Assembly (NCBI RefSeq): GCF_000331105.1
Contig: NC_020054.1
Location: 2,698,813-2,762,812, forward strand
Length of the DNA stretch: 64,000 nt
Direction of reading: 5' to 3'
Origin: Fibrella aestuarina BUZ 2
GTDB taxonomy: Bacteria > Bacteroidota > Bacteroidia > Cytophagales > Spirosomataceae
Shown here: positions 7,940 through 39,948 of the stretch, one piece after another
How the letters are laid out: every line of letters begins with the position of its first letter
Numbering within the stretch: the stretch's first letter is position 1
Translations under genes and position numbers: made by a program
Notes under the pieces: model-generated
Told to the model about the DNA's origin: nothing
Databases searched by the model: none
The model's input: only the letters and a program-made list of their open reading frames with translations

Positions 7940-7957
7940 GGGGAGTGAAGAATGAAT

Positions 7958-8124
7958 AATGTATAATGAATGATGTACAATGAATGATGTCCGATGCCTC
8001 AGCATGGAGGCACAATGGCTGAATGTCAACGGTTGTGGCTAATTATCGGCCAGTCAATGTACCGCAGCGGCTAGGTGCCCCCGGCGGACCGCATTATTCA
8101 TCATACATTATTCATTATACATTA
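7958..8124. repeat. Intergenic hairpin repeat, AATGATAATG-type words
   Basis: The left arm (about 7958-7990) and right arm (about 8092-8124) are complementary over about 33 bases with four or five mismatches. Both arms are made of permuted words such as TAATG, GAATG and GATG. They enclose about 100 bases of GC-richer sequence with no gene. The element separates two minus-strand glycosyltransferase units, and the right arm reaches the stop codon of the upstream gene. It may act as terminator or insulator and belongs to a family seen many times in the window. Confidence 0.75.
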
Positions 8125-12081: not shown

Positions 12082-12178
12082 GAATTGATAATGGATAATG
12101 AACAATGTACAATGGCTTGCGCAGGCTCACTCCTCAGTCATTGTACATTGTTCATTATCCATTATTCATTATCAGTTC
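12082..12178. repeat. Intergenic hairpin repeat with 27-base perfect arms
   Basis: The arms at 12088-12114 and 12139-12165 are exact reverse complements over 27 bases, with a 24-base loop. The complementarity extends outward to about 12082 and 12178, but the right arm carries one extra AATAATG-type unit. The words are GATAATG, AACAATG and TACAATG. The hairpin fills the whole gap between the convergent moaA and DJ-1/PfpI genes. It could end transcription from both sides. Confidence 0.9.
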
Positions 12179-17206: not shown

Positions 17207-17314
17207 GTTTGACGTTTGATGTCTGATGTTTGGGGTTTAATGGCTACCGCATGGAAGGCGTATGTCCGACAGGGGCGCGAATCAACGTCAAACGGTAGAC
17301 ATCAAACGTCAAAC
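17207..17314. repeat. Intergenic hairpin repeat, GACGTTTGATGTC words
   Basis: Arms 17207-17224 (GTTTGACGTTTGATGTCT) and 17297-17314 are exact reverse complements over 18 bases. Further partial matches lie inward, and about 72 bases are enclosed. It lies between the divergent starts of the oxidoreductase and pnuC, so it cannot be only a terminator. It could hold regulatory sites for both promoters. Confidence 0.8.
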
Positions 17315-19493: not shown

Positions 19494-19594
19494 GTCATTA
19501 GGCTGCGCCGTCATTGGTAGTCATTCATGGTCATTCATCGTAAGAAGGCAACGAATGACCATGAATGACTACCAATGACGCGCAGCCTAATGAC
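19494..19594. repeat. Intergenic hairpin repeat with 42-43 base arms, GTCATT words
   Basis: The left arm 19494-19536 and right arm 19553-19594 are complementary over their full length with a single one-base bulge (an extra C in the left arm). The loop is 16 bases. The arms consist of repeated GTCATT-N-GTGGTCATT-type words around the insert AGGCTGCG. Extra direct copies of GTCATT precede the left arm from 19472, and CCTAATGAC is repeated after the right arm at 19601. It is the longest near-perfect hairpin of the family here. No gene is present in 19442-19706. Confidence 0.92.
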
Positions 19595-29179: not shown

Positions 29180-29216
29180 CACGAAGGGGAAACGGCCAGG
29201 CCGTTTCCCCTTCGTG
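29180..29216. terminator. Bidirectional terminator hairpin
   Basis: Two 18-base arms (29180-29197 and 29199-29216) are perfect complements around one central base, so the real loop opens a few pairs. It lies between the convergent M36 protease gene and guaB. No T-run follows on the plus strand. Confidence 0.75.
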
Positions 29217-32122: not shown

Positions 32123-33442
32123 ATGAGTAGAAACGGTACACTCTTGTTGCTCACGACCTTATGGATGGGGACGGCTTGGGGACAAACCGTGGTGCCGACG
32201 GTGCAGGAGGCGCTGGCATTGGCCCGGCGCAACAACCCTGAACTCATCAACGCCCGCCAAAACCGGCTGGTGCAGGAGCAGCAACGGGTGGCTAGCCGGG
32301 CCGCCCTGCGCCCACAAGCCCGGCTCTACAGCAACCTCGATTACAACTACGCGCTGCCTGTGCAACTGATTCCGCTCAGCCTGTTTGGCGGTGGCAGTGA
32401 TGAGTACCGGAGCGTGCGGTTTGGGCTGCCTTTTGTGCTGCTGGCAACGGGCGAAATCACGGCGCCACTCGTCAACCGGGCCGCCCGGGCTGACCTGGCG
32501 CTGGCCGAGCAAAACCTGCGCATCATCGACGATCAGACGCTGGTCTTGCAGGATGAAATCTCGACGCAGACAGCGCGGGTGTACCACGCGGCGCTGCTGA
32601 CGCGCGCCGCCATTGCCCTGACCCGGCGTAACCTGCTGGCCGCCGATACACTCGTGCAGATTGCCCGCGCCCGGCTCGACAAAGGCCAAATCGAACCCCT
32701 CGAATACAACCGCATCCGGCAGGTGCAGCTCACGACCGCCGACGTGCTGTCACAGAATCAGTTAAGCTATGGTCGTAATCTGGCGCAGTTAAAGCTGCTG
32801 CTGGGTCTGGCCCCGACCGACAGCCTGCTGTTAACCGACGACTTGTTGAAAGCTTCCCAAGCGCCTGGCCCACTCCCCGACGCTACCTCCCTCGACCGAC
32901 CGCAGCTCAGCATGCGCCGCGCTCAACTCGACCTGGCCCGGAGGCAGATCGGCCGGGAACAACTGGCGTTCTGGCCTACACTGGCTGCCTACGGGCGCTA
33001 CTCGCAGCAGGCGCAGCGCGATCAGTTCAATTTTCTGAATGTGTCGCAGCGGTGGTTCGAGATTGGCGTGGTGGGTGTGCAGTTCAATCTGCCGCTCTAC
33101 ACGGGTGGCCTGCGACAGGGTAACCTGGCTCGGGCGCGGCTGCTAGTGCAACTGGCCGAATCGCAATTGGCCTACGAGCAGCACCGTCAGCAAACCGATA
33201 CCGACGATATCCGGCAGGCGTATGATCAGGCCTTGCGCTCGCTCGAACTGAACCGGCAAAATGACGAACTAAGCCGCCAGAATGTACAGATCGCCCTTGT
33301 CAAATACCGGTCGGGGCTGTTTGCCTATGACCAGTATCTGAACGTGTTTAACGAAACCTTGACGGCACAAAATCGCTACCTGAATGCGCTCTCGACCCTG
33401 TTTATTAACCAGACCCTCTGGCAGATTCGGTTTGGGCAGTAA
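32123..33442 (+). CDS. TolC-family outer membrane efflux protein
   Basis: A 439-residue protein with signal peptide (MSRNGTLLLLTTLWMGTAWG) and two OEP repeats. It begins with VPTVQEALALARRNNPEL and has coiled-coil helices such as NLLAADTLVQIARARLDKGQ. The second half has FNLPLYTGGLRQGNLARAR, a typical TolC strand and turn. It should form the outer membrane channel for the adaptor, permease and ATPase encoded downstream. The stop is overlapped by the adaptor start, indicating one operon. Confidence 0.92.
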   Translation: MSRNGTLLLLTTLWMGTAWGQTVVPTVQEALALARRNNPELINARQNRLVQEQQRVASRAALRPQARLYSNLDYNYALPVQLIPLSLFGGGSDEYRSVRFGLPFVLLATGEITAPLVNRAARADLALAEQNLRIIDDQTLVLQDEISTQTARVYHAALLTRAAIALTRRNLLAADTLVQIARARLDKGQIEPLEYNRIRQVQLTTADVLSQNQLSYGRNLAQLKLLLGLAPTDSLLLTDDLLKASQAPGPLPDATSLDRPQLSMRRAQLDLARRQIGREQLAFWPTLAAYGRYSQQAQRDQFNFLNVSQRWFEIGVVGVQFNLPLYTGGLRQGNLARARLLVQLAESQLAYEQHRQQTDTDDIRQAYDQALRSLELNRQNDELSRQNVQIALVKYRSGLFAYDQYLNVFNETLTAQNRYLNALSTLFINQTLWQIRFGQ

Positions 33443-34538
33443 GCCCCACCTGATCACGCATGGGTTTGTCTTTTTGGCGTTGTTGTCCGGCTGTCAACCT
33501 CGTCAGGAAACCACCCGCCCGGCCTACAACGACCTTACCGAAGCGGTGTATGCTTCGGGTAATGTGTTGCCCCGCGATGAATACATCCTGCGGGCCGACG
33601 CCGACGGGACGCTGCAACAGCGGCTGGTGAACGAAGGGGATACCGTGCGGAAAGGCCAGCTCCTGTTTGTGCTCGAAAGCGCCACCGAAGAAGCCCGTCG
33701 GCAGGCCGCCGCGGCGGTACTGCGGCAGTCGCAGGCCAATTTGCAACGCGATTCACCAGTGCTGGCCGAACTGGAAAATGGGGTACACAACGCCCGTACC
33801 CGGCTGCGTAACGATTCGGTCAACTACGTTCGGTTTCGTGAATTATACGCCCAGAACGCTACCTCCCGCGCCGAACTCGAACGGGCCGAGCTGAACTACA
33901 CGCTGGCGCAAAATACCTTGCGGGCCCAGCAGAATACGCTGCAACGTACCCGGAACCAACTGGGCGTCGACGTGGCCAACAGCCGGAGCCAACTGGTGAC
34001 GACTGAAGTGGCAGGCCAGAATACCCGTATCCGCAGTTTCGTGGACGGCAAGGTATACGAGGTCTACAAAGACCCCGGCGAACTGGTTCGGCCCGGCGAT
34101 CAACTGGCCCTGCTGGGCAGTGGTCGCCGCCTGTATGCCCAATTGTCGGTCGATGAAAGTGATTTCGGACGGCTACGGGCCGGTCAGGAGGTGCTCTTGA
34201 AAACCGATGCCTACGGCGACCGCGTGTTTAAGGCCCGCGTGACGAAGGTGTATCCCAAGCTAAACCGCGCGGATCAATCGTTTCGGGTCGATGCCGAATT
34301 CTCCGACGGGCAGCCCGACGCCTATTACGGACTAACGCTGGAAGCGAATATCATCATCAACCAGCATCGGCGCGTGCTGACCATTCCGAAAACCTACGTG
34401 GTCGGTACCGACAGTGTCTGGATCGACCAGGCCGGAAAACCGCAGAAAATCCGCTTCCGAAAAGGCGCCGAAAACTTTGATCTAGTCGAAGTGAAAGGCG
34501 GCCTGACGGAGAACACGACACTGATTAGTAAAGAGTGA
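33432..34538 (+). CDS. HlyD/MacA-like periplasmic adaptor lipoprotein
   Basis: A membrane fusion protein of about 368 residues. I chose the TTG at 33432 because it gives a compact lipoprotein signal (MGSKPHLITH then FVFLALLSGC, Cys21 acylated). An ATG at 33384 is in frame but would add 16 unlikely residues and overlap tolC by 59 bases. A biotinyl-lipoyl half (EYILRADADGTLQQRLVNEG) is followed by a long coiled-coil hairpin, the second lipoyl half (TRIRSFVDGKVYEVYKDPGE) and the beta-barrel domain. It links the MacB-like permease to TolC. A simple-word hairpin spans its stop codon. Confidence 0.9.
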   Translation: MGSKPHLITHGFVFLALLSGCQPRQETTRPAYNDLTEAVYASGNVLPRDEYILRADADGTLQQRLVNEGDTVRKGQLLFVLESATEEARRQAAAAVLRQSQANLQRDSPVLAELENGVHNARTRLRNDSVNYVRFRELYAQNATSRAELERAELNYTLAQNTLRAQQNTLQRTRNQLGVDVANSRSQLVTTEVAGQNTRIRSFVDGKVYEVYKDPGELVRPGDQLALLGSGRRLYAQLSVDESDFGRLRAGQEVLLKTDAYGDRVFKARVTKVYPKLNRADQSFRVDAEFSDGQPDAYYGLTLEANIIINQHRRVLTIPKTYVVGTDSVWIDQAGKPQKIRFRKGAENFDLVEVKGGLTENTTLISKE

Positions 34539-34627
34539 AAGAGCGAATGAGTGCAAAGGCCTCCGCAGGTACGTTCCGGGTATTGCTATCACTCATTCAC
34601 TCTTCCGCCCATTCACTCATTCGCTCC
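34531..34627. repeat. Intergenic hairpin repeat, GAGTGAAAG words
   Basis: The left arm (34531-34553) and right arm (34590-34627) share complementary words such as GAGTGAAAG, GCGAATGAGTG and CACTCATTC, with the right arm longer by one internal duplication. The loop contains GGTACGTT. It fills the gap between the adaptor and the permease, inside a presumed operon, so it probably acts at the RNA level (partial termination, stability) rather than as a complete stop. Confidence 0.7.
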
Positions 34628-34629
34628 CT

Positions 34630-35880
34630 ATGAATCTTCGCATTGCTGCTCAAATCGCCCAAACGCATCTGCTGGCCAAAAAACGGCAGACGCTCATCGC
34701 CATGCTGGGCGTGACGTTTGGCATTGCCATGTTCATCACCATGATTTCGTTCATGCAGGGCGTCAACCAGTTTCTGGAAGACTCGGCCCTCGACGCCAGC
34801 CCGCACATTCGGCTATACAACGAAGTCAATACCCAGCGACCCAGCCTGATCGATCAGCTGCGCCCCGGTGGCTTCAACGTCACCCACCACCAGAAACCAA
34901 AAAACGAACTGGCACGCATCAAAAACGGGCTGACCATCGCCAACCGCATCGAGCGCCAAAGCGGGGTGCTGGGTGTTTCGCCGCAGGTGGCGACGCAGGC
35001 CTTCTACAACAATGGCCCCATCCAGCTATCGGGCACGATTTCGGGCGTCGACATTGCGCGCGAAGACCGGCTGTATGGCCTGAAAAGCCGACTGAAATCG
35101 GGGAGCGTCAACGCCCTGCGCAGTAACCCCGACGGGCTGATTATGGGCACCACGCTGGCCCGCAAGCTGAATGTCGTGACCGGCGATAAGGTGACCGTGA
35201 CAACGCCTACCGGCACCACGCGGGTGTTGCGGGTGGTGGGTACGTTCGGCTTTGGCATTGGTACCATCGACAACACGAAAAGCTACGCCAACCTGCCCAC
35301 TGTGCAGGAACTGCTCGGCAAAGATCCCAGCTACATCACCGATATCCACGTGAAGATGCTCGATCCCATGCAGGCCATTCCGCTCGGTCGGCGGCTGCAA
35401 ACGCAGTATGGGTATCACGCCGAAGACTGGGCTACAGCCAACGCCGCCATTCTGGCGGGCGAAAAAATCAGGAACATGCTCACCTACGTGGTGTCGATCA
35501 CCCTGCTGGTGGTGGCGGGTTTCGGCATCTACAACATCATGAACATGACCGTCGTCAACAAAATCAAAGACATTGCGATTCTAAAGGCGACCGGCTTCGA
35601 GGGACACGATATTGTGGCTATTTTTCTGCTTCAGGCCCTGTTTATTGGGCTGTCGGGCGGGCTGCTGGGGCTGGGTATCGGCTTTTGCCTCAGCTACCTG
35701 CTGTCGATTACGCCGTTCGACGCGGGCGATTTTCTAAGCATGAAAACGTTCCCGGTTATTTTCGAGCCGAAGTACTACATCAACGGCCTGCTGTTTGGTA
35801 TCATCACCACCGTGCTGGCAGGTTATTTCCCCTCCCGCAAAGCCGCCAAAGTAGACCCGGTGGCAATTCTCCGCGGATAG
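34630..35880 (+). CDS. MacB-like ABC transporter permease (FtsX domain)
   Basis: A 416-residue permease: one N-terminal helix (LIAMLGVTFGIAMFITMIS), a large periplasmic domain of about 230 residues, and three C-terminal helices of the FtsX domain (VSITLLVVAGFGIYNIMNM, then KIKDIAILKATGF). MacB-type systems move substrates from the periplasm or outer leaflet through TolC using ATP hydrolysed in the cytoplasm. Its ATPase is encoded separately at 36368, but a foreign-looking gene with flanking inverted repeats lies between them. The protein ends in the usual basic SRKAAKVDPVAILRG. Confidence 0.93.
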   Translation: MNLRIAAQIAQTHLLAKKRQTLIAMLGVTFGIAMFITMISFMQGVNQFLEDSALDASPHIRLYNEVNTQRPSLIDQLRPGGFNVTHHQKPKNELARIKNGLTIANRIERQSGVLGVSPQVATQAFYNNGPIQLSGTISGVDIAREDRLYGLKSRLKSGSVNALRSNPDGLIMGTTLARKLNVVTGDKVTVTTPTGTTRVLRVVGTFGFGIGTIDNTKSYANLPTVQELLGKDPSYITDIHVKMLDPMQAIPLGRRLQTQYGYHAEDWATANAAILAGEKIRNMLTYVVSITLLVVAGFGIYNIMNMTVVNKIKDIAILKATGFEGHDIVAIFLLQALFIGLSGGLLGLGIGFCLSYLLSITPFDAGDFLSMKTFPVIFEPKYYINGLLFGIITTVLAGYFPSRKAAKVDPVAILRG

Positions 35881-35892
35881 AAATGGGGAATT

Positions 35893-36351
35893 GATGAATG
35901 ATAAGTGATGAATGAGGAATAAACGGATGAGTAATGAAAAAGGAACAGCGTGATCCACTCCGAGAGAAGACAATGAACATGGCTATCCGTGTTGTCAATT
36001 TAGCTCGGTATCTCAAAGAGACAAAGGCTGAACATGTGCTGAGTAAGCAAGTGTTGCGAGCTGGTACGAATCCGGGGGCGATGGTTTGTGAAGCAGCCAA
36101 CGCTGAGACCGGACAGGATTTTGTGCATAAGCTAGGGGTTGCGCAAAAAGAAACAGCCGAAACGTTGTATTGGCTCGAACTCTTGTTTCGGACGAGCTAC
36201 CTGTCAGCAAGTGAGTATGAGTCGATTCGCAGTGATGCGGAAGAGGTGATGCGGTTGCTCCGAAGCTCTATACTTACCAAAAAGAAGCGTATGGCTACAG
36301 GAAAGCCGTGATGTCGCCACGAAAGCCAGCATTCATCATTTATCATTCATC
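35893..36351. mobile_element. Inverted-repeat-bounded unit carrying the four-helix-bundle gene (candidate IVS-like element)
   Basis: Arms at 35893-35914 and 36330-36351 are reverse complements over 22 bases with one mismatch (words GATGAATGATAA, GTGATGAATG). They enclose exactly one gene, of the S23/23S rRNA-intervening-sequence protein family. The unit sits in the junction between permease and ATPase genes of one transporter. In 23S rRNA, intervening sequences also form a stem whose loop encodes this protein family. No transposase or target duplication was seen, so mobility is an inference. Confidence 0.5.
35934..36311 (+). CDS. Four-helix-bundle protein (S23 / 23S rRNA-intervening sequence protein family)
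   Basis: A 125-residue all-helical protein. Family features are an N-terminal NMAIRVVNLARYLKE, then LSKQVLRAGTNPGAMVCEA, the AETGQDFVHKLGVAQKETAET helix (kept short here: KETAETLYWLELL) and a C-terminal EEVMRLLRSSI. S23-family proteins are encoded in intervening sequences of bacterial 23S rRNA and are related to the Avd accessory proteins of diversity-generating retroelements. They form pentamers that bind nucleic acid, but their cellular role is unclear. This gene is not in rRNA; it interrupts an efflux operon and is bracketed by inverted repeats. Its basic tail (KKKR) may contact nucleic acid. Confidence 0.85.
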   Translation: MKKEQRDPLREKTMNMAIRVVNLARYLKETKAEHVLSKQVLRAGTNPGAMVCEAANAETGQDFVHKLGVAQKETAETLYWLELLFRTSYLSASEYESIRSDAEEVMRLLRSSILTKKKRMATGKP

Positions 36352-36367
36352 GCTCATCATTTTAAAG

Positions 36368-37036
36368 ATGGTTCTCTCGGCCCGGCATCTGAATAAGTAC
36401 TTCTATGATCCCGAGAAGTTTCGGGTGTTGAACGACATTACGTTTGATATACAACAGGGTGAGTTTGTCTCGATCGTAGGCAAATCGGGTTGTGGCAAAT
36501 CGACGCTGCTGTACCTGCTCTCAACGATGGATACCGACTACGAGGGGCAGATTGAATTGGCCGGTACGTTGCTGACCGGCCGTAGCCAGGATTTTCTGGC
36601 GCATTTCCGGAACGAACACCTGGGCTTCGTGTTTCAATTTCATTTTCTACTACCCGAATTCACCGCCCTGCAAAACGTGATGCTGCCCGCCCTGAAACTG
36701 GGCAAATACACGGCAGGTGAGATCGAAGAACGGGCTATGCAGAAACTCCGGCTGGTGGGCATGGCTGATTACGCCCGTAAACCAACCAGCAAGCTATCGG
36801 GTGGGCAGCAGCAGCGGGTGGCTATTGCCCGCGCGATGGTCAACGACCCTACCATCATCATGGGCGACGAACCCACCGGTAACCTGGACAAGGCTAATAC
36901 GAATAATGTATTCGGTATTTTTCGTGATCTGGCCGCCCAGGGGCAGACCATCATTGCCGTTACGCACGACCCCGACTTTGCGGCCGGCACAGACCGGATT
37001 ATCGAGATGTCAGACGGGCAGATTGTAAAAGCATAG
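36368..37036 (+). CDS. ABC transporter ATP-binding protein (MacB/LolD type)
   Basis: A 222-residue ATPase starting at the ATG at 36368 (MVLSARHLNKYF). It has Walker A VGKSGCGKSTLL, the signature LSGGQQQRVAIARA, Walker B IIMGDEPTGNLD and the switch histidine in VTHDPDF. The QFHFLLPEFTALQNV Q-loop region is typical of the LolD/MacB subgroup. It should power the FtsX-type permease encoded upstream. The open frame extends to 36308, but that part is hairpin-arm sequence, not protein. It is the last gene of the efflux operon. Confidence 0.94.
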   Translation: MVLSARHLNKYFYDPEKFRVLNDITFDIQQGEFVSIVGKSGCGKSTLLYLLSTMDTDYEGQIELAGTLLTGRSQDFLAHFRNEHLGFVFQFHFLLPEFTALQNVMLPALKLGKYTAGEIEERAMQKLRLVGMADYARKPTSKLSGGQQQRVAIARAMVNDPTIIMGDEPTGNLDKANTNNVFGIFRDLAAQGQTIIAVTHDPDFAAGTDRIIEMSDGQIVKA

Positions 37037-37277
37037 GCCGATTGAGTTACCGAATTTATTTGATCGATAAAATATTTTTTACAAATAGTTATAAATACAA
37101 ACATCCGTACTGCGCGCAACACCGTTAGTATAGTCAACTGCACGTCGTAAGTACGTGGTTACAAAAGACTTACTTAAAAGTCCCTATAAAAAAGTAAGTA
37201 AAAAGCGATGAAGATGTGACCATGTGTTAGGGGCAAAGTCTAAGGATTATCACTACGTATAATGCGCTAAAATTACC
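37037..37277. other. AT-rich intergenic region with a small dyad
   Basis: No protein-coding gene is seen. An 8-base dyad, ACTTACTT (37168-37175) and AAGTAAGT (37192-37199), with a 16-base spacer could be an operator or a weak terminator. Base composition is clearly AT-richer than the surrounding genes. It leads into a short reading frame at 37278. Confidence 0.4.
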
Positions 37278-37460: not shown

Positions 37461-38831
37461 CTACTTGCCAATGCAAAACCGGCTGAAAATTGAGTCGAGC
37501 AGATCGTCGGTAGTCACTTCGCCGGTGAGCTCGCCCAACTCGCGCAGGGCCACGCGCAGATCCATCGCCAGCCAATCGGCCGACGTACCTGCGTCGAGTG
37601 CGCTCAGGGCGCGGGCAATGGCTTCATCGGTGGCCAGCAAGTGCTGCAAATGACGTGCGTTCGTCACGACCGCGCTACCCGTCTGCATGGCGGTATTGCC
37701 CCGTGCCTGTGCCGATAGAGCCACTTTCAGCGCGTCGATCTGTGCATCTTTGGCCGATATCCACAAAACAGGCTGATTGTCGCTCAACGCCTGCCGGTTG
37801 GCATCCGACGTTGCGTCGGCTTTGTTGCCAACCAGCACATACGGTTTGCCCGACCTGTTCAGCTCGGCTACCATGTCCTGTAATTCATCGGGTGTGGTGG
37901 TGCTACCATCGAACAGGTAGACGACCAGCGCGGCTTTCTCGATCTGCTGCCGGGTACGTTCCACGCCAATTGCTTCGATCGTATCGGTGGTGTCGCGGAG
38001 GCCCGCCGTGTCGATCAGCCGGAACCGGATGCCGTCGATGAAAAGTTCGTCCTCGATGACGTCGCGGGTGGTGCCGGGAATGTCGGAAACAATCGCCTTT
38101 TCTTCGTTCAACAACGCGTTGAGCAGCGTCGATTTGCCCGCGTTGGGTTTGCCGACGATCACCGTCGGAACGCCGTTCTTGATGACGTTACCCGCCGAGA
38201 ACGACTCGATCAGCGGCTGAACAACTGCCCGGATAGCCTGCATCAGTTGCCGGAGCTGATCGCGCTTGGCAAACTCGACGTCTTCTTCGCCGAAATCCAG
38301 TTCCAGCTCAACCAGCGCTACAAAGTCGATCAGTTGCTGGCGCAGGTCTTTCAACTGCTTTGAAAAACCACCCCGTAGCTGACTCAGCGCCGCCCGATGG
38401 CTCGCCGCCGAGTCGGCCGCAATCACGTCGGCTACGGCTTCGGCCTGCACCAGGTCGAACTGCCCATTCAGGAAGGCGCGTTGGGTAAACTCGCCGGGTT
38501 TGGCCAGCCGGGCGCCCGCCTGCGTGAGCTCGGTCAGGATCTGCCGGATGATGTATTCCGAGCCGTGGCACGAAATCTCGACCACATCTTCTTTGGTAAA
38601 GGAACTTGGGCTGCGGAACACCGTGACGAGCACTTCGTCGATCAGTAGGCCGGCTGCCGTACGAAACGTGCCGAAATGGGCCGTATGGCTTGGTTGCTGC
38701 GTGAGGTCTTTGCCCCGAAACAGCCGGGCCGTCAGGTCAATAGCGCCGTCGCCCGACACGCGCACGACGGCGATAGCCCCAATGCCGGGGGCCGTAGCCA
38801 GCGCCGCAATAGGTTCGAGTTGGTGGATCAA
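37461..38831 (-). CDS. mnmE: tRNA uridine-5-carboxymethylaminomethyl modification GTPase MnmE
   Basis: A protein of about 456 residues with an N-terminal formyl-folate-binding domain (APGIGAIAVVRVSG, then SCHGSEYIIRQIL), a helical domain and a Ras-like G domain: G1 GKPNAGKST, G2 region with IPGTTRD, G3 DTAGLRDT, and G4 GNKAD. The C-terminus CIGK carries the conserved cysteine. With MnmG it modifies the wobble uridine of several tRNAs. I chose the TTG at 38831 (MIHQLEPIAAL); upstream in-frame codons lie in a simple-word hairpin that is not protein-like. A TTG start or a start inside the hairpin needs testing. Confidence 0.95.
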   Translation of the reverse strand: MIHQLEPIAALATAPGIGAIAVVRVSGDGAIDLTARLFRGKDLTQQPSHTAHFGTFRTAAGLLIDEVLVTVFRSPSSFTKEDVVEISCHGSEYIIRQILTELTQAGARLAKPGEFTQRAFLNGQFDLVQAEAVADVIAADSAASHRAALSQLRGGFSKQLKDLRQQLIDFVALVELELDFGEEDVEFAKRDQLRQLMQAIRAVVQPLIESFSAGNVIKNGVPTVIVGKPNAGKSTLLNALLNEEKAIVSDIPGTTRDVIEDELFIDGIRFRLIDTAGLRDTTDTIEAIGVERTRQQIEKAALVVYLFDGSTTTPDELQDMVAELNRSGKPYVLVGNKADATSDANRQALSDNQPVLWISAKDAQIDALKVALSAQARGNTAMQTGSAVVTNARHLQHLLATDEAIARALSALDAGTSADWLAMDLRVALRELGELTGEVTTDDLLDSIFSRFCIGK

Positions 38832-38841
38832 AATAAGTTTT

Positions 38842-38911
38842 AGGTTCAACGTCCAATGTCCAAGGTTGTACGTCACGTCATAGTAGACGTTGCACATTGG
38901 ACGTTGGACCT
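38842..38911. repeat. Intergenic hairpin repeat, AACGTCCAATGTCC words
   Basis: Arms 38842-38863 and 38890-38911 are complementary over 22 bases with two mismatches, with a 26-base loop. The words are AACGTCCAATG and variants. It fills the gap between a DUF2236 gene stop and the mnmE start, both on the minus strand, and overlaps the likely leader of mnmE. Confidence 0.85.
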
Positions 38912-39948
38912 CACACTGTTTTTGGTATCAGTTTGGGGAAGATAGGAAGTCGGTTGACCACTCCCACCAGCGACTCTTCGACCGGTACGTTGGGGATGCC
39001 CAGCGCGTCGGCATGATCGGAGCCGAGGAAAAAACGCATTTGAGCGGCCGCGAGGTTCCGCGTCGACGGGTTACCGCTGATTGTTGCGATGGCATCGAGC
39101 AGCGCTTTGGTCAGGCCCCGCCCCGCCTCTGAGGCGGCAAACTGCCGCCGCGCAATGAGCTTGTCGAGGTGAAAGGCCTCGCGCAAGTTGCGGGGGAGGA
39201 GTTCGTCAGATACCCCGTTGATAAAGCCGATTACGTTGATGTGGTGCAAATAATCTTCCTCGTCGGCCTCGGTCATGGGTACGCCCATTTTGCGCAGCCC
39301 CCGCAGCACGATGTAGCTGAAGGCGCCCATCGTGCCGACCATGTCTTCCTGGCAGACCGGTACGCCCCAGGCCTCGTTCCAGCGCGGCACGCCGTTGGTA
39401 TTAGCCTGATAGGCGTACCAGCGGGCAGCGGCGTGGATTAGTCTGATTTTCAGGGTGTAGGCCACGGCTTTGGGGGGCGCATTGTGGGTTGAAGGGCGCA
39501 GCCAGTTTTTGGGTTCATTGACCGCAAAAACCCACTCGCCCGTTTCCTGAAGGCGGCGCGGTGTGTCGGTCTTGATGCGTTCGGTGAGCCAGAGCAACTG
39601 AATGCCGTTGGCACCCAGGTACGTGTAGGGTAGCGACAACGTACCCAGCGCAAGGCCAATGGCACCGGCATGTCGCTGAAAAAACGCCATGCCCCGCTGC
39701 ATGCGCTTCCCGTCGGCCCAAGCGGGCAGGTGTGCGTAATCGACAAAAAATTGCCGCACGGCCTCGGGTTGATCAGCTGTGTCAACGGTATCAGTATTAG
39801 CCAGCCAGCGCATCAACTGCCCCACGGCCGGGTGGTGCCCCTGCGCGGCTACGGCGGCAATAACGGCATCGGCGGGTGGGTCGCCCTGCAACCGGGCATT
39901 AGCCAGTTGGGCATCCGTAAAAACGCGGGTCGGTTTGATGGCGATCAT
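38911..39948 (-). CDS. DUF2236 / MpaB-like oxygenase family protein
   Basis: A 345-residue protein. DUF2236-type stretches are GAIGLALGTLSLPYTYLGAN, RLQETGEWVFAV, KIRLIHAAARWYAYQ, PVCQEDMVGTMGAFSYIVL and LHHINVIGFINGVS. The conserved histidines (in LIHAA and YLHHIN) could bind heme or iron as in the fungal MpaB oxygenase and latex clearing protein Lcp. Substrate unknown. The hairpin at its 3' end separates it from mnmE. The start at 39948 is an ATG, 39 bases from the stop of the upstream MBL gene on the same strand. Confidence 0.82.
   Translation of the reverse strand: MIAIKPTRVFTDAQLANARLQGDPPADAVIAAVAAQGHHPAVGQLMRWLANTDTVDTADQPEAVRQFFVDYAHLPAWADGKRMQRGMAFFQRHAGAIGLALGTLSLPYTYLGANGIQLLWLTERIKTDTPRRLQETGEWVFAVNEPKNWLRPSTHNAPPKAVAYTLKIRLIHAAARWYAYQANTNGVPRWNEAWGVPVCQEDMVGTMGAFSYIVLRGLRKMGVPMTEADEEDYLHHINVIGFINGVSDELLPRNLREAFHLDKLIARRQFAASEAGRGLTKALLDAIATISGNPSTRNLAAAQMRFFLGSDHADALGIPNVPVEESLVGVVNRLPIFPKLIPKTV

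Follow-up and report, generated by a model that had tools for sequence, protein, structure and literature searches.

The window, that is, the whole 64,000-nucleotide stretch of Fibrella aestuarina BUZ 2 DNA analysed here, probably contains one copy of a bacteria-wide class of elements that are like the intervening sequences (IVS) of rRNA and lie outside it, each consisting of an S23 gene set between arms of degenerate tandem heptamers. Such an element is, in what seems likely to be the typical case, about 460-560 bp long and lies in the gap that separates an operon gene's stop codon from the start of the gene that follows. Observed directly are the gene, its arms, their period of 7 and their polarity, the operon setting, and the presence or absence of the element between congeners; this suggests a widespread, little-noticed class of genetic insert in the operon gaps of many bacteria. 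The anatomy found outside rRNA (arms, gaps, sense strand, and purifying selection in the tested pairs) turns S23 from a matter of odd rRNA inserts into an element class that can be tested.

The S23 locus of the window

Central to the locus is a gene of the S23, or 23S rRNA-intervening-sequence, family, whose product matches PF05635 (E 1.1e-19; 71.1 bits, against a curated cut-off of 33.8) and TIGR02436 (E 1.9e-22; 79.5 bits, cut-off 24) in profile searches. A profile built from 16 S23 proteins, the window's included, also matched the solved structures 2rld and 2gsc, the latter being XCC0516. The S23 frame is the sole one between the arms with a family match, the remaining frames being shorter and antisense. 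The placement claimed in the earlier note, exactly between a MacB-like permease gene and its ATPase gene, was confirmed, with all three genes on the same strand (Table 1); an OEP-type outer-membrane gene and an HlyD-type gene precede the permease in the operon (family search). The permease is 81-89% identical at the protein level in four congeners, and the ATPase start given in the table agrees with the starts in two of them (L008 and L010), the mechanical ORF beginning at 36308.

The arms are 22 nt long and 95% complementary, and the element measures 459 bp. Their inverted-repeat score of 19 compares with a median of 9 and a maximum of 15 at 408 random spots of the window, so that the framing repeat with one mismatch described earlier holds up. 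A survey of 864 kb of the genome yielded just two inverted repeats that score at least 16 and have their arms 250-600 bases apart: one is that of the window's S23 gene, and the other lies around an unrelated ORF adjoining an empty hairpin. The RNA of positions 35881-36370 is predicted to fold with a minimum free energy of -157.3 kcal/mol (z -4.05) and a 33-pair terminal stem that begins at about 35881. No Rfam match was found at 33400-37200 up to E 0.1, and a known RNA family was thus rejected; a defence role was likewise rejected, there being no PADLOC match for the four S23 proteins tested.

Table 1. The S23 element, its host-operon genes and the empty word hairpins of the window
Feature	Position	Strand	Basis
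S23 / 23S rRNA-intervening-sequence four-helix-bundle protein, 125 aa	35934..36311	+	PF05635, TIGR02436
MacB-type permease, host-operon gene upstream of S23	34630..35880	+	PF02687 (FtsX), PF12704 (MacB_PCD)
ABC transporter ATPase, host-operon gene downstream of S23	36368..37036	+	PF00005, ORF, junction comparison
Left arm, words GATGAAT/GATAAGT/GATGAAT	35893..35914	+	inverted repeat, RNA fold
Right arm, reverse complement of the left arm bar one mismatch	36330..36351	+	inverted repeat; paired in predicted RNA
Empty word hairpin, GAAAGAGCGAATGAGTG class, next operon gap upstream, overlaps HlyD gene end	34530..34626	.	hairpin search
Empty word hairpin, AATGTATAATGAATG	7957..8124	.	hairpin search
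Empty word hairpin, AATGGATAATGAACAATG	12088..12165	.	hairpin search
Empty word hairpin, GTTTGACGTTTGATG	17207..17314	.	hairpin search
Empty word hairpin, GTCATT 10-mer words, class shared with S23 locus L003 of the same genome	19494..19594	.	
Empty word hairpin, GGACGTTGGAC class	38829..38924	.	hairpin search
Empty word hairpin, GAAAGAGTGAAAG class, as at S23 locus L006	40748..40829	.	hairpin search

Arms and setting of S23 genes across bacteria

The genome carries six S23 genes (profile search), and four of the other five have arms of at least 20 nt, each with its own words: by the repeat finder, 20-23 nt (87-90%) at L001, 42 nt (79%) at L003, 25 nt (84%) at L004 and 32 nt (84%) at L006. The fifth, L002, has degenerate tracts only; the repeat finder gave no arms there, and tracts of GGGAGGAAAGG type are visible by eye. 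For a wider view 188 S23 loci were pooled: 29 from the genus, 65 from the family, 77 from a cross-bacterial scan and 17 more from 15 of the genomes of that scan. The scan comprised 80 loci, from which L192, L193 and L200 were dropped for flanks that were too short; the added set is what was kept of 30 loci found, 13 of them already pooled, and L089 and L094, at contig ends, were left out at pooling. Genomes with S23 genes, from many bacterial phyla, have between 1 and 17 copies. The Terriglobia genome of locus L190 (G055) has 17 in 4.4 Mb, three of them within 27 kb on contig C170.

Each locus received the score of the best inverted repeat formed by its two 400-base flanks, one upstream and the other downstream of the gene, and the threshold was set at 13. 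The earlier note had tied its element idea to flanking inverted repeats at other S23 genes as well, and 140 of the 188 loci, from many phyla, have a score of at least 13 with their own pair of flanks (127 of 171, and 13 of the 17 added). In the cross-bacterial set the figure is 57 of 77, against 1.1 expected from shuffled pairs. The genus set separates less cleanly: word classes recur among congeneric loci, which raises the 99% level for shuffled pairs to 17, and only 11 of the 29 loci score higher. Spots away from S23 genes reach 13 in 37 of 2514, 6 of 378, 8 of 241, 1 of 252 and 0 of 252 cases in five genomes, and ORFs of similar size, real and spurious, in 11 of 820. The 48 loci below the threshold include some with heptamer tracts that the scoring missed, L274 for example. 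In G020, seven of nine further S23 loci score at least 13, among them L272, which has no clear period; the tenth, L076, scores 9.

The arms are periodic. Their autocorrelation peaks at lag 7 (0.44-0.50, against 0.25-0.27 in genes) and again at 14, with weaker peaks at lags 8 and 16; the best lag among 110 arms is 7 in 75 and 8 in 24. The words themselves differ between loci, within a single genome too: GATGAAT in the window, TACAATG at L004, GAGTGAAA (8 bases) at L006 and GTCATTNNTN (10) at L003. Eighty period-7 arms nevertheless have a weak common pattern, about W-N-R-G-W-W-(not C), in which part of the G signal comes from the way the words were brought into phase. The left arm is poor in C on the sense strand of S23 (10.6% over 109 loci). 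Its mean GC skew, calculated like the mismatch counts given below from loci at or above the score threshold, is +0.58 at 98 loci where S23 and operon run in the same direction, +0.63 at 20 where S23 opposes the operon, and +0.64 (15 loci) and +0.30 (6 loci) between genes of opposite direction. The sign of the skew thus does not depend on the orientation of the host genes, so that arm polarity is a feature of the element, not of the host transcript.

Neighbours running in the same direction as each other flank 161 of 186 S23 loci (2 of the 188, without usable neighbours, being left out), 133 of these in the direction of S23 and 28 against it, a comparison made by a longest-ORF heuristic without a genome-wide null. 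The distance from the upstream ORF to the outer end of the left arm has a median of 3.5 bases in the genus, 15 in the family and 8 across bacteria, as measured at 110 same-direction loci among the first 149 judged. Among the genus sites recognised by reading the flanks are hisH-hisA, ilvB-ilvN, cysH-cysD, rfb genes and several ABC/HlyD operons.

Such a distribution could also come from selection acting on a passenger: S23 genes would land anywhere by ordinary recombination, the copies in operon gaps and in the sense direction would be transcribed and survive, and the arms would arise generically in non-coding DNA as bacterial 7-nt slippage and the correction of palindromes act on it. In favour of such a process, the introduction of PMC4679880 says that in an earlier survey heptamers were the most frequent class of 5-11 nt tandem repeats in most genomes. 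Yet arms of this kind are seldom found at random spots or around other ORFs of the same genomes, as the counts above show, and we consider this account unlikely. Small GIY-YIG genes from the same family of genomes also count on its side, as they too have inverted-repeat flanks, in 8 of 13 cases (L324, L326, L327, L330, L331, L332, L333 and L349), and the idea that inverted repeats are special to S23 was therefore rejected. (Of 17 UvrC-type loci in this comparison, 16 had short flanks and one was scored.) The GIY-YIG arms, however, belong to a few related, non-periodic sequences common to several genomes, of the CTTCGACAGGCTCAGGGTGACA type or, at L333, the TGTCATCCCGACG...GGAGGGATCTTGA type, the second of which is also present as empty hairpins in the Fibrella genome, and they are not locus-specific heptamers. 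What distinguishes S23 from GIY-YIG is its heptamer words, differing by locus; the GIY-YIG loci look like a second class of gene-in-hairpin element. One contig (G025:C46:91-1937) has five tandem GIY-YIG reading frames, 407 bases apart.

Empty hairpins and empty sites

The earlier note had counted at least seven empty word-built hairpins in the window besides the S23 arms, and seven were located (Table 1); a further hairpin at 29180 is not word-built and was excluded. That these hairpins are built of words was correct; that they are built of one common set was not, the S23 arm being of GATGAAT and the empty hairpins of several other classes (AATGTATAATG, GTTTGACG, GTCATT, GGACGTT and GAAAGAGT). 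Word-built hairpins number 31 in 800 kb of this genome, or 3.9 per 100 kb. Their kinship with S23 arms, proposed in the same note, holds in part. Four of the five testable S23 arms of this genome closely match its empty hairpins, the window's arm having no match, while arms from elsewhere match them in 1 of 16 cases among congeners, 2 of 49 in the family and 1 of 70 in other bacteria (L002, with a score of 8, and all loci below the score threshold were left out). The sharing of words thus stands within this genome, and as a general rule it does not: in G020 and G018, rich in S23 with 10 and 8 genes, no word hairpin was found in 80 kb of each, about three being expected in each at the density of the Fibrella genome. 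For this reason S23 as the source of all empty hairpins is doubted as a general rule. The S23-free genomes G014 (120 kb searched) and G012 (79 kb) had none either, which leaves the comparison of S23 with hairpins weak in both directions. In this small sample the empty hairpins seem to be an outgrowth particular to one lineage; they have words in common with S23 arms but do not seem to be required by the system.

Several of the hairpins have structure of their own. Those of the GTCATT class (19494-19594, L003 and, in region A, 596, 85079, 161566 and 247979) have an internal GGCTKCGC-like block, in several other word classes the end is GGCTGACGC or GGCTTCGCG, and the hairpins look nested or chimeric. 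At G000:C2:471457-471908 (region A 371457-371908) a 135-codon frame with CPQCG and CDREDHCGYH motifs, not S23-like by eye, lies within a perfect 23-nt inverted repeat of AGTGGTGAAAGTGGTAAAAGTGA, next to which stands a hairpin built of these words too.

Hairpins scattered between genes, in some cases on either side of a gene with which they have sequence in common, are reminiscent of REP/BIME elements and their RAYT proteins, and S23 might play the part proposed for RAYT with respect to REP, that of a transposase-like protein spreading the empty hairpins. The words common to S23 arms and empty hairpins of the same genome fit this, as do L031-L033, where by eye the S23 gene lies between two copies of its own hairpin, and the lack of a Y1 transposase in the genome that could do the dispersing (PF01797, no match), a result by which Y1/RAYT itself was rejected as the mover. 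Unlike REP/RAYT, though, words differ between loci and S23 arms are present in G020, where no dispersed word hairpins are seen in the 80 kb; the same zero in G018 counts against S23 as their disperser too, and a four-helix bundle is not known to have a catalytic site. We regard this account as very improbable. The locus does not look like an insertion sequence or MITE either, there being no transposase in the element and the arms differing from locus to locus.

The second prop of the earlier element idea was that relatives should include some with an empty site, and this is the case at the window locus: in 4 of 4 congeners the permease and ATPase genes are adjacent and S23 is absent. By eye, L008 and L010 have a single tract of similar heptamers at the position of the right arm, and L009 and L011 have no tract. 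Among 39 flank-homologous sites for 12 further S23 loci of the genus, S23 is present in 6 and absent from 33 (15 loci were queried; L020 and L023 have no usable congener site, and L034 is the ortholog of L006). At ilvB-ilvN the junctions are clean in 3 of 3 comparisons, with neither hairpin nor tract by eye. Inspection by eye of the junctions at the window locus and at ilvB-ilvN revealed no target-site duplication, though word tracts hamper the test.

These patterns of presence and absence between congeners point to mobility of the element. The best candidate for relocation is the pair L196/L197, whose S23 genes are 82% identical and have the same arm words; the right arm can be aligned, after which the host genes differ, while on the left the alignment ends 31 bases ahead of the gene match and does not reach the left arms, and no flank homology was found. 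Judged by reading the flanks, the two downstream genes are neighbours in a fatty-acid oxidation operon. A second case, L090/L107, is ambiguous, both loci adjoining similar permease-like genes. Recent transposition is not supported, as no near-identical S23 pair at unrelated sites was seen among the 188 loci. In-frame stops in 4 of the 29 genus copies are a sign of decay.

Empty sites bear also on a further account, in which the arms belong to the host and S23 genes enter intergenic hairpins already present, lodging in their loops much as IVS sit in rRNA helices. Many other S23-free slots of the genus do hold hairpins of 60-120 nt by eye, in words different from those of the arms, and the match of four of the five arms of this genome to its empty hairpins would also be expected from such insertions. 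But the S23 loci of G020 are armed as described despite the lack of word hairpins in its 80 kb, the arms keep the polarity of the S23 strand also in operons that run the other way, and by eye there is no hairpin or tract to enter at the three ilvB-ilvN slots or at two of the four slots that correspond to the window locus. There is, in our estimate, only a small chance that this account is correct; arms that belong to the element, as in the class proposed at the outset, are the reading we keep.

Change in the arms, and relation to known systems

Orthologous S23 loci of the genus (the orthology of L002, L017, L018 and L022 being read from their flanks) allow gene and arms to be compared. The five of 14 ortholog pairs with finite dS have dN/dS of 0.02-0.23, so these genes are under purifying selection; the pairs come from other loci, the window gene having no ortholog pair. 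In the remaining 9 of 14, dS is saturated or not computable, and the arms are nevertheless present. At one site (L024/L025, 64% protein identity) both arms have switched words together. At another, L031, L032 and L033 have matched arms of 28, 29 and 134 nt, L033 having the same extra stretch of about 100 nt on both sides (score 125 over 134 nt, with 3 mismatches); the flanks of these three loci are themselves palindromic, and inverted and direct copies are therefore indistinguishable there. Over the 14 pairs, the arms match better within a locus than across orthologs in 8, equally well in 3 and worse in 3, with summed matches of 643 within and 376 across, or 345 and 309 without L033. Copying from arm to arm is thus supported at some loci, most clearly at L024/L025 and L031-L033, and not as a general rule.

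If the arms were selected as an RNA stem, G-U mismatches should exceed A-C; no excess is seen (145 G-U vs 170 A-C, p 0.18, 109 loci), and such selection is not claimed. This argues against maintenance of the arms as an RNA stem, though fast homogenisation at the DNA level would hide the G-U signal too.

A sequence of events that would account for the anatomy runs as follows. The element would be transcribed together with its host operon, and the arms of the transcript would fold into a long stem open to cutting by RNase III, by analogy with rRNA IVS; cutting would release the S23 message and leave the host cistrons usable. At the DNA level the arms may change by 7-nt slippage and arm-to-arm copying, so that the two arms of a locus would stay complementary even as its words drift away from those of other loci. 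The S23 protein, presumably ring-forming and Avd-like, may bind the nucleic acid of its own element, and this binding would promote persistence or copying of the element. From here we put forward, tentatively, the possibility that S23 proteins are the core of bacteria-wide, transposase-free selfish hairpin elements that colonise operon gaps, in which S23-assisted copying rewrites the heptamer arms, each locus keeping its own matched words, and of which the rRNA IVS would be a few copies that landed in rRNA. S23 elements in any case offer a natural system for studying by what means long inverted repeats remain matched as their words change.

The nearest known relative is the IVS of Coxiella burnetii, for which the available text of PMC4990558 describes an S23 gene, a 28-bp terminal stem, a length of 428-444 nt, a folding energy of -143 kcal/mol, excision by RNase III in vitro, and GACAGAT heptamers in tandem ahead of the S23 gene, two to three of them depending on the strain. 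The window element likewise has a gene of this family, a terminal inverted repeat in the range of 20-30 bp, a very stable predicted hairpin, a left arm with heptamer words directly before S23, and a similar size (459 bp). The likeness to rRNA IVS claimed by the earlier note is thus supported by matching anatomy, including the heptamers published for Coxiella (PMC4990558). Unlike a 23S rRNA IVS, the window copy lies in a protein-coding efflux operon, and unlike the Coxiella IVS, S23 elements often occur in several copies per genome, with different words. The genus ortholog pairs under purifying selection differ, too, from the Coxiella gene, which that paper, in the part available, describes as decaying, its protein in the authors' view probably not being made in vivo. 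As no copy in rRNA was found among 171 loci (no exact match of ten 23S motifs), the comparison with rRNA rests on this one paper, which also says of the S23 family that it has no known function and of the Xanthomonas S23 protein that it is a homopentamer (PMC4990558, same text).

Heptamers occur in bacterial intergenic DNA apart from S23. Tracts of TAACTGA are described from Beggiatoaceae, Cyanobacteria and Bacteroidetes (PMC4679880, in part), and these, like S23 arms, are 7-nt tandem words in intergenic DNA, in overlapping taxa; unlike the arms, they are direct repeats of one fixed word (same source). The terms 'S23', 'intervening sequence' and 'four-helix' are absent from the main text of that paper as available. 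S23 elements tie the Coxiella IVS heptamers to these intergenic tracts. The cyanobacterial tRNA-Leu intron also contains heptamer repeats.

As to earlier mentions of the family, a figure legend of PMC10910872 names the 23S rRNA IVP domain among CRISPR-linked domains, and PMC11637426 and PMC5787105 also name the family. Titles and the beginnings of abstracts of open-access papers gave no description of heptamer-built arms around S23 outside rRNA; one may exist in subscription papers or preprints.

Finally, S23 proteins resemble Avd, the accessory protein of diversity-generating retroelements (DGR): PHROG 3206 was matched by two of the four S23 proteins tested, the window's not among them, and a resemblance of PF05635 to Avd is stated in the part of PMC10053308 available. 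Unlike a DGR, the S23 loci of this genome have no reverse transcriptase gene next to them: there are just two RVT_1 genes, at 0.95 and 4.37 Mb, separated by 49 kb or more from all six S23 genes, the window's S23 gene being near 2.73 Mb. Of the two, found by RVT_1 matches, the first (L322, 949931-950587) is a 577-residue reverse transcriptase that looks like that of a group II intron, and the second (L323, G000:C2:4368911-4369540) one of 499 residues that looks retron-like.
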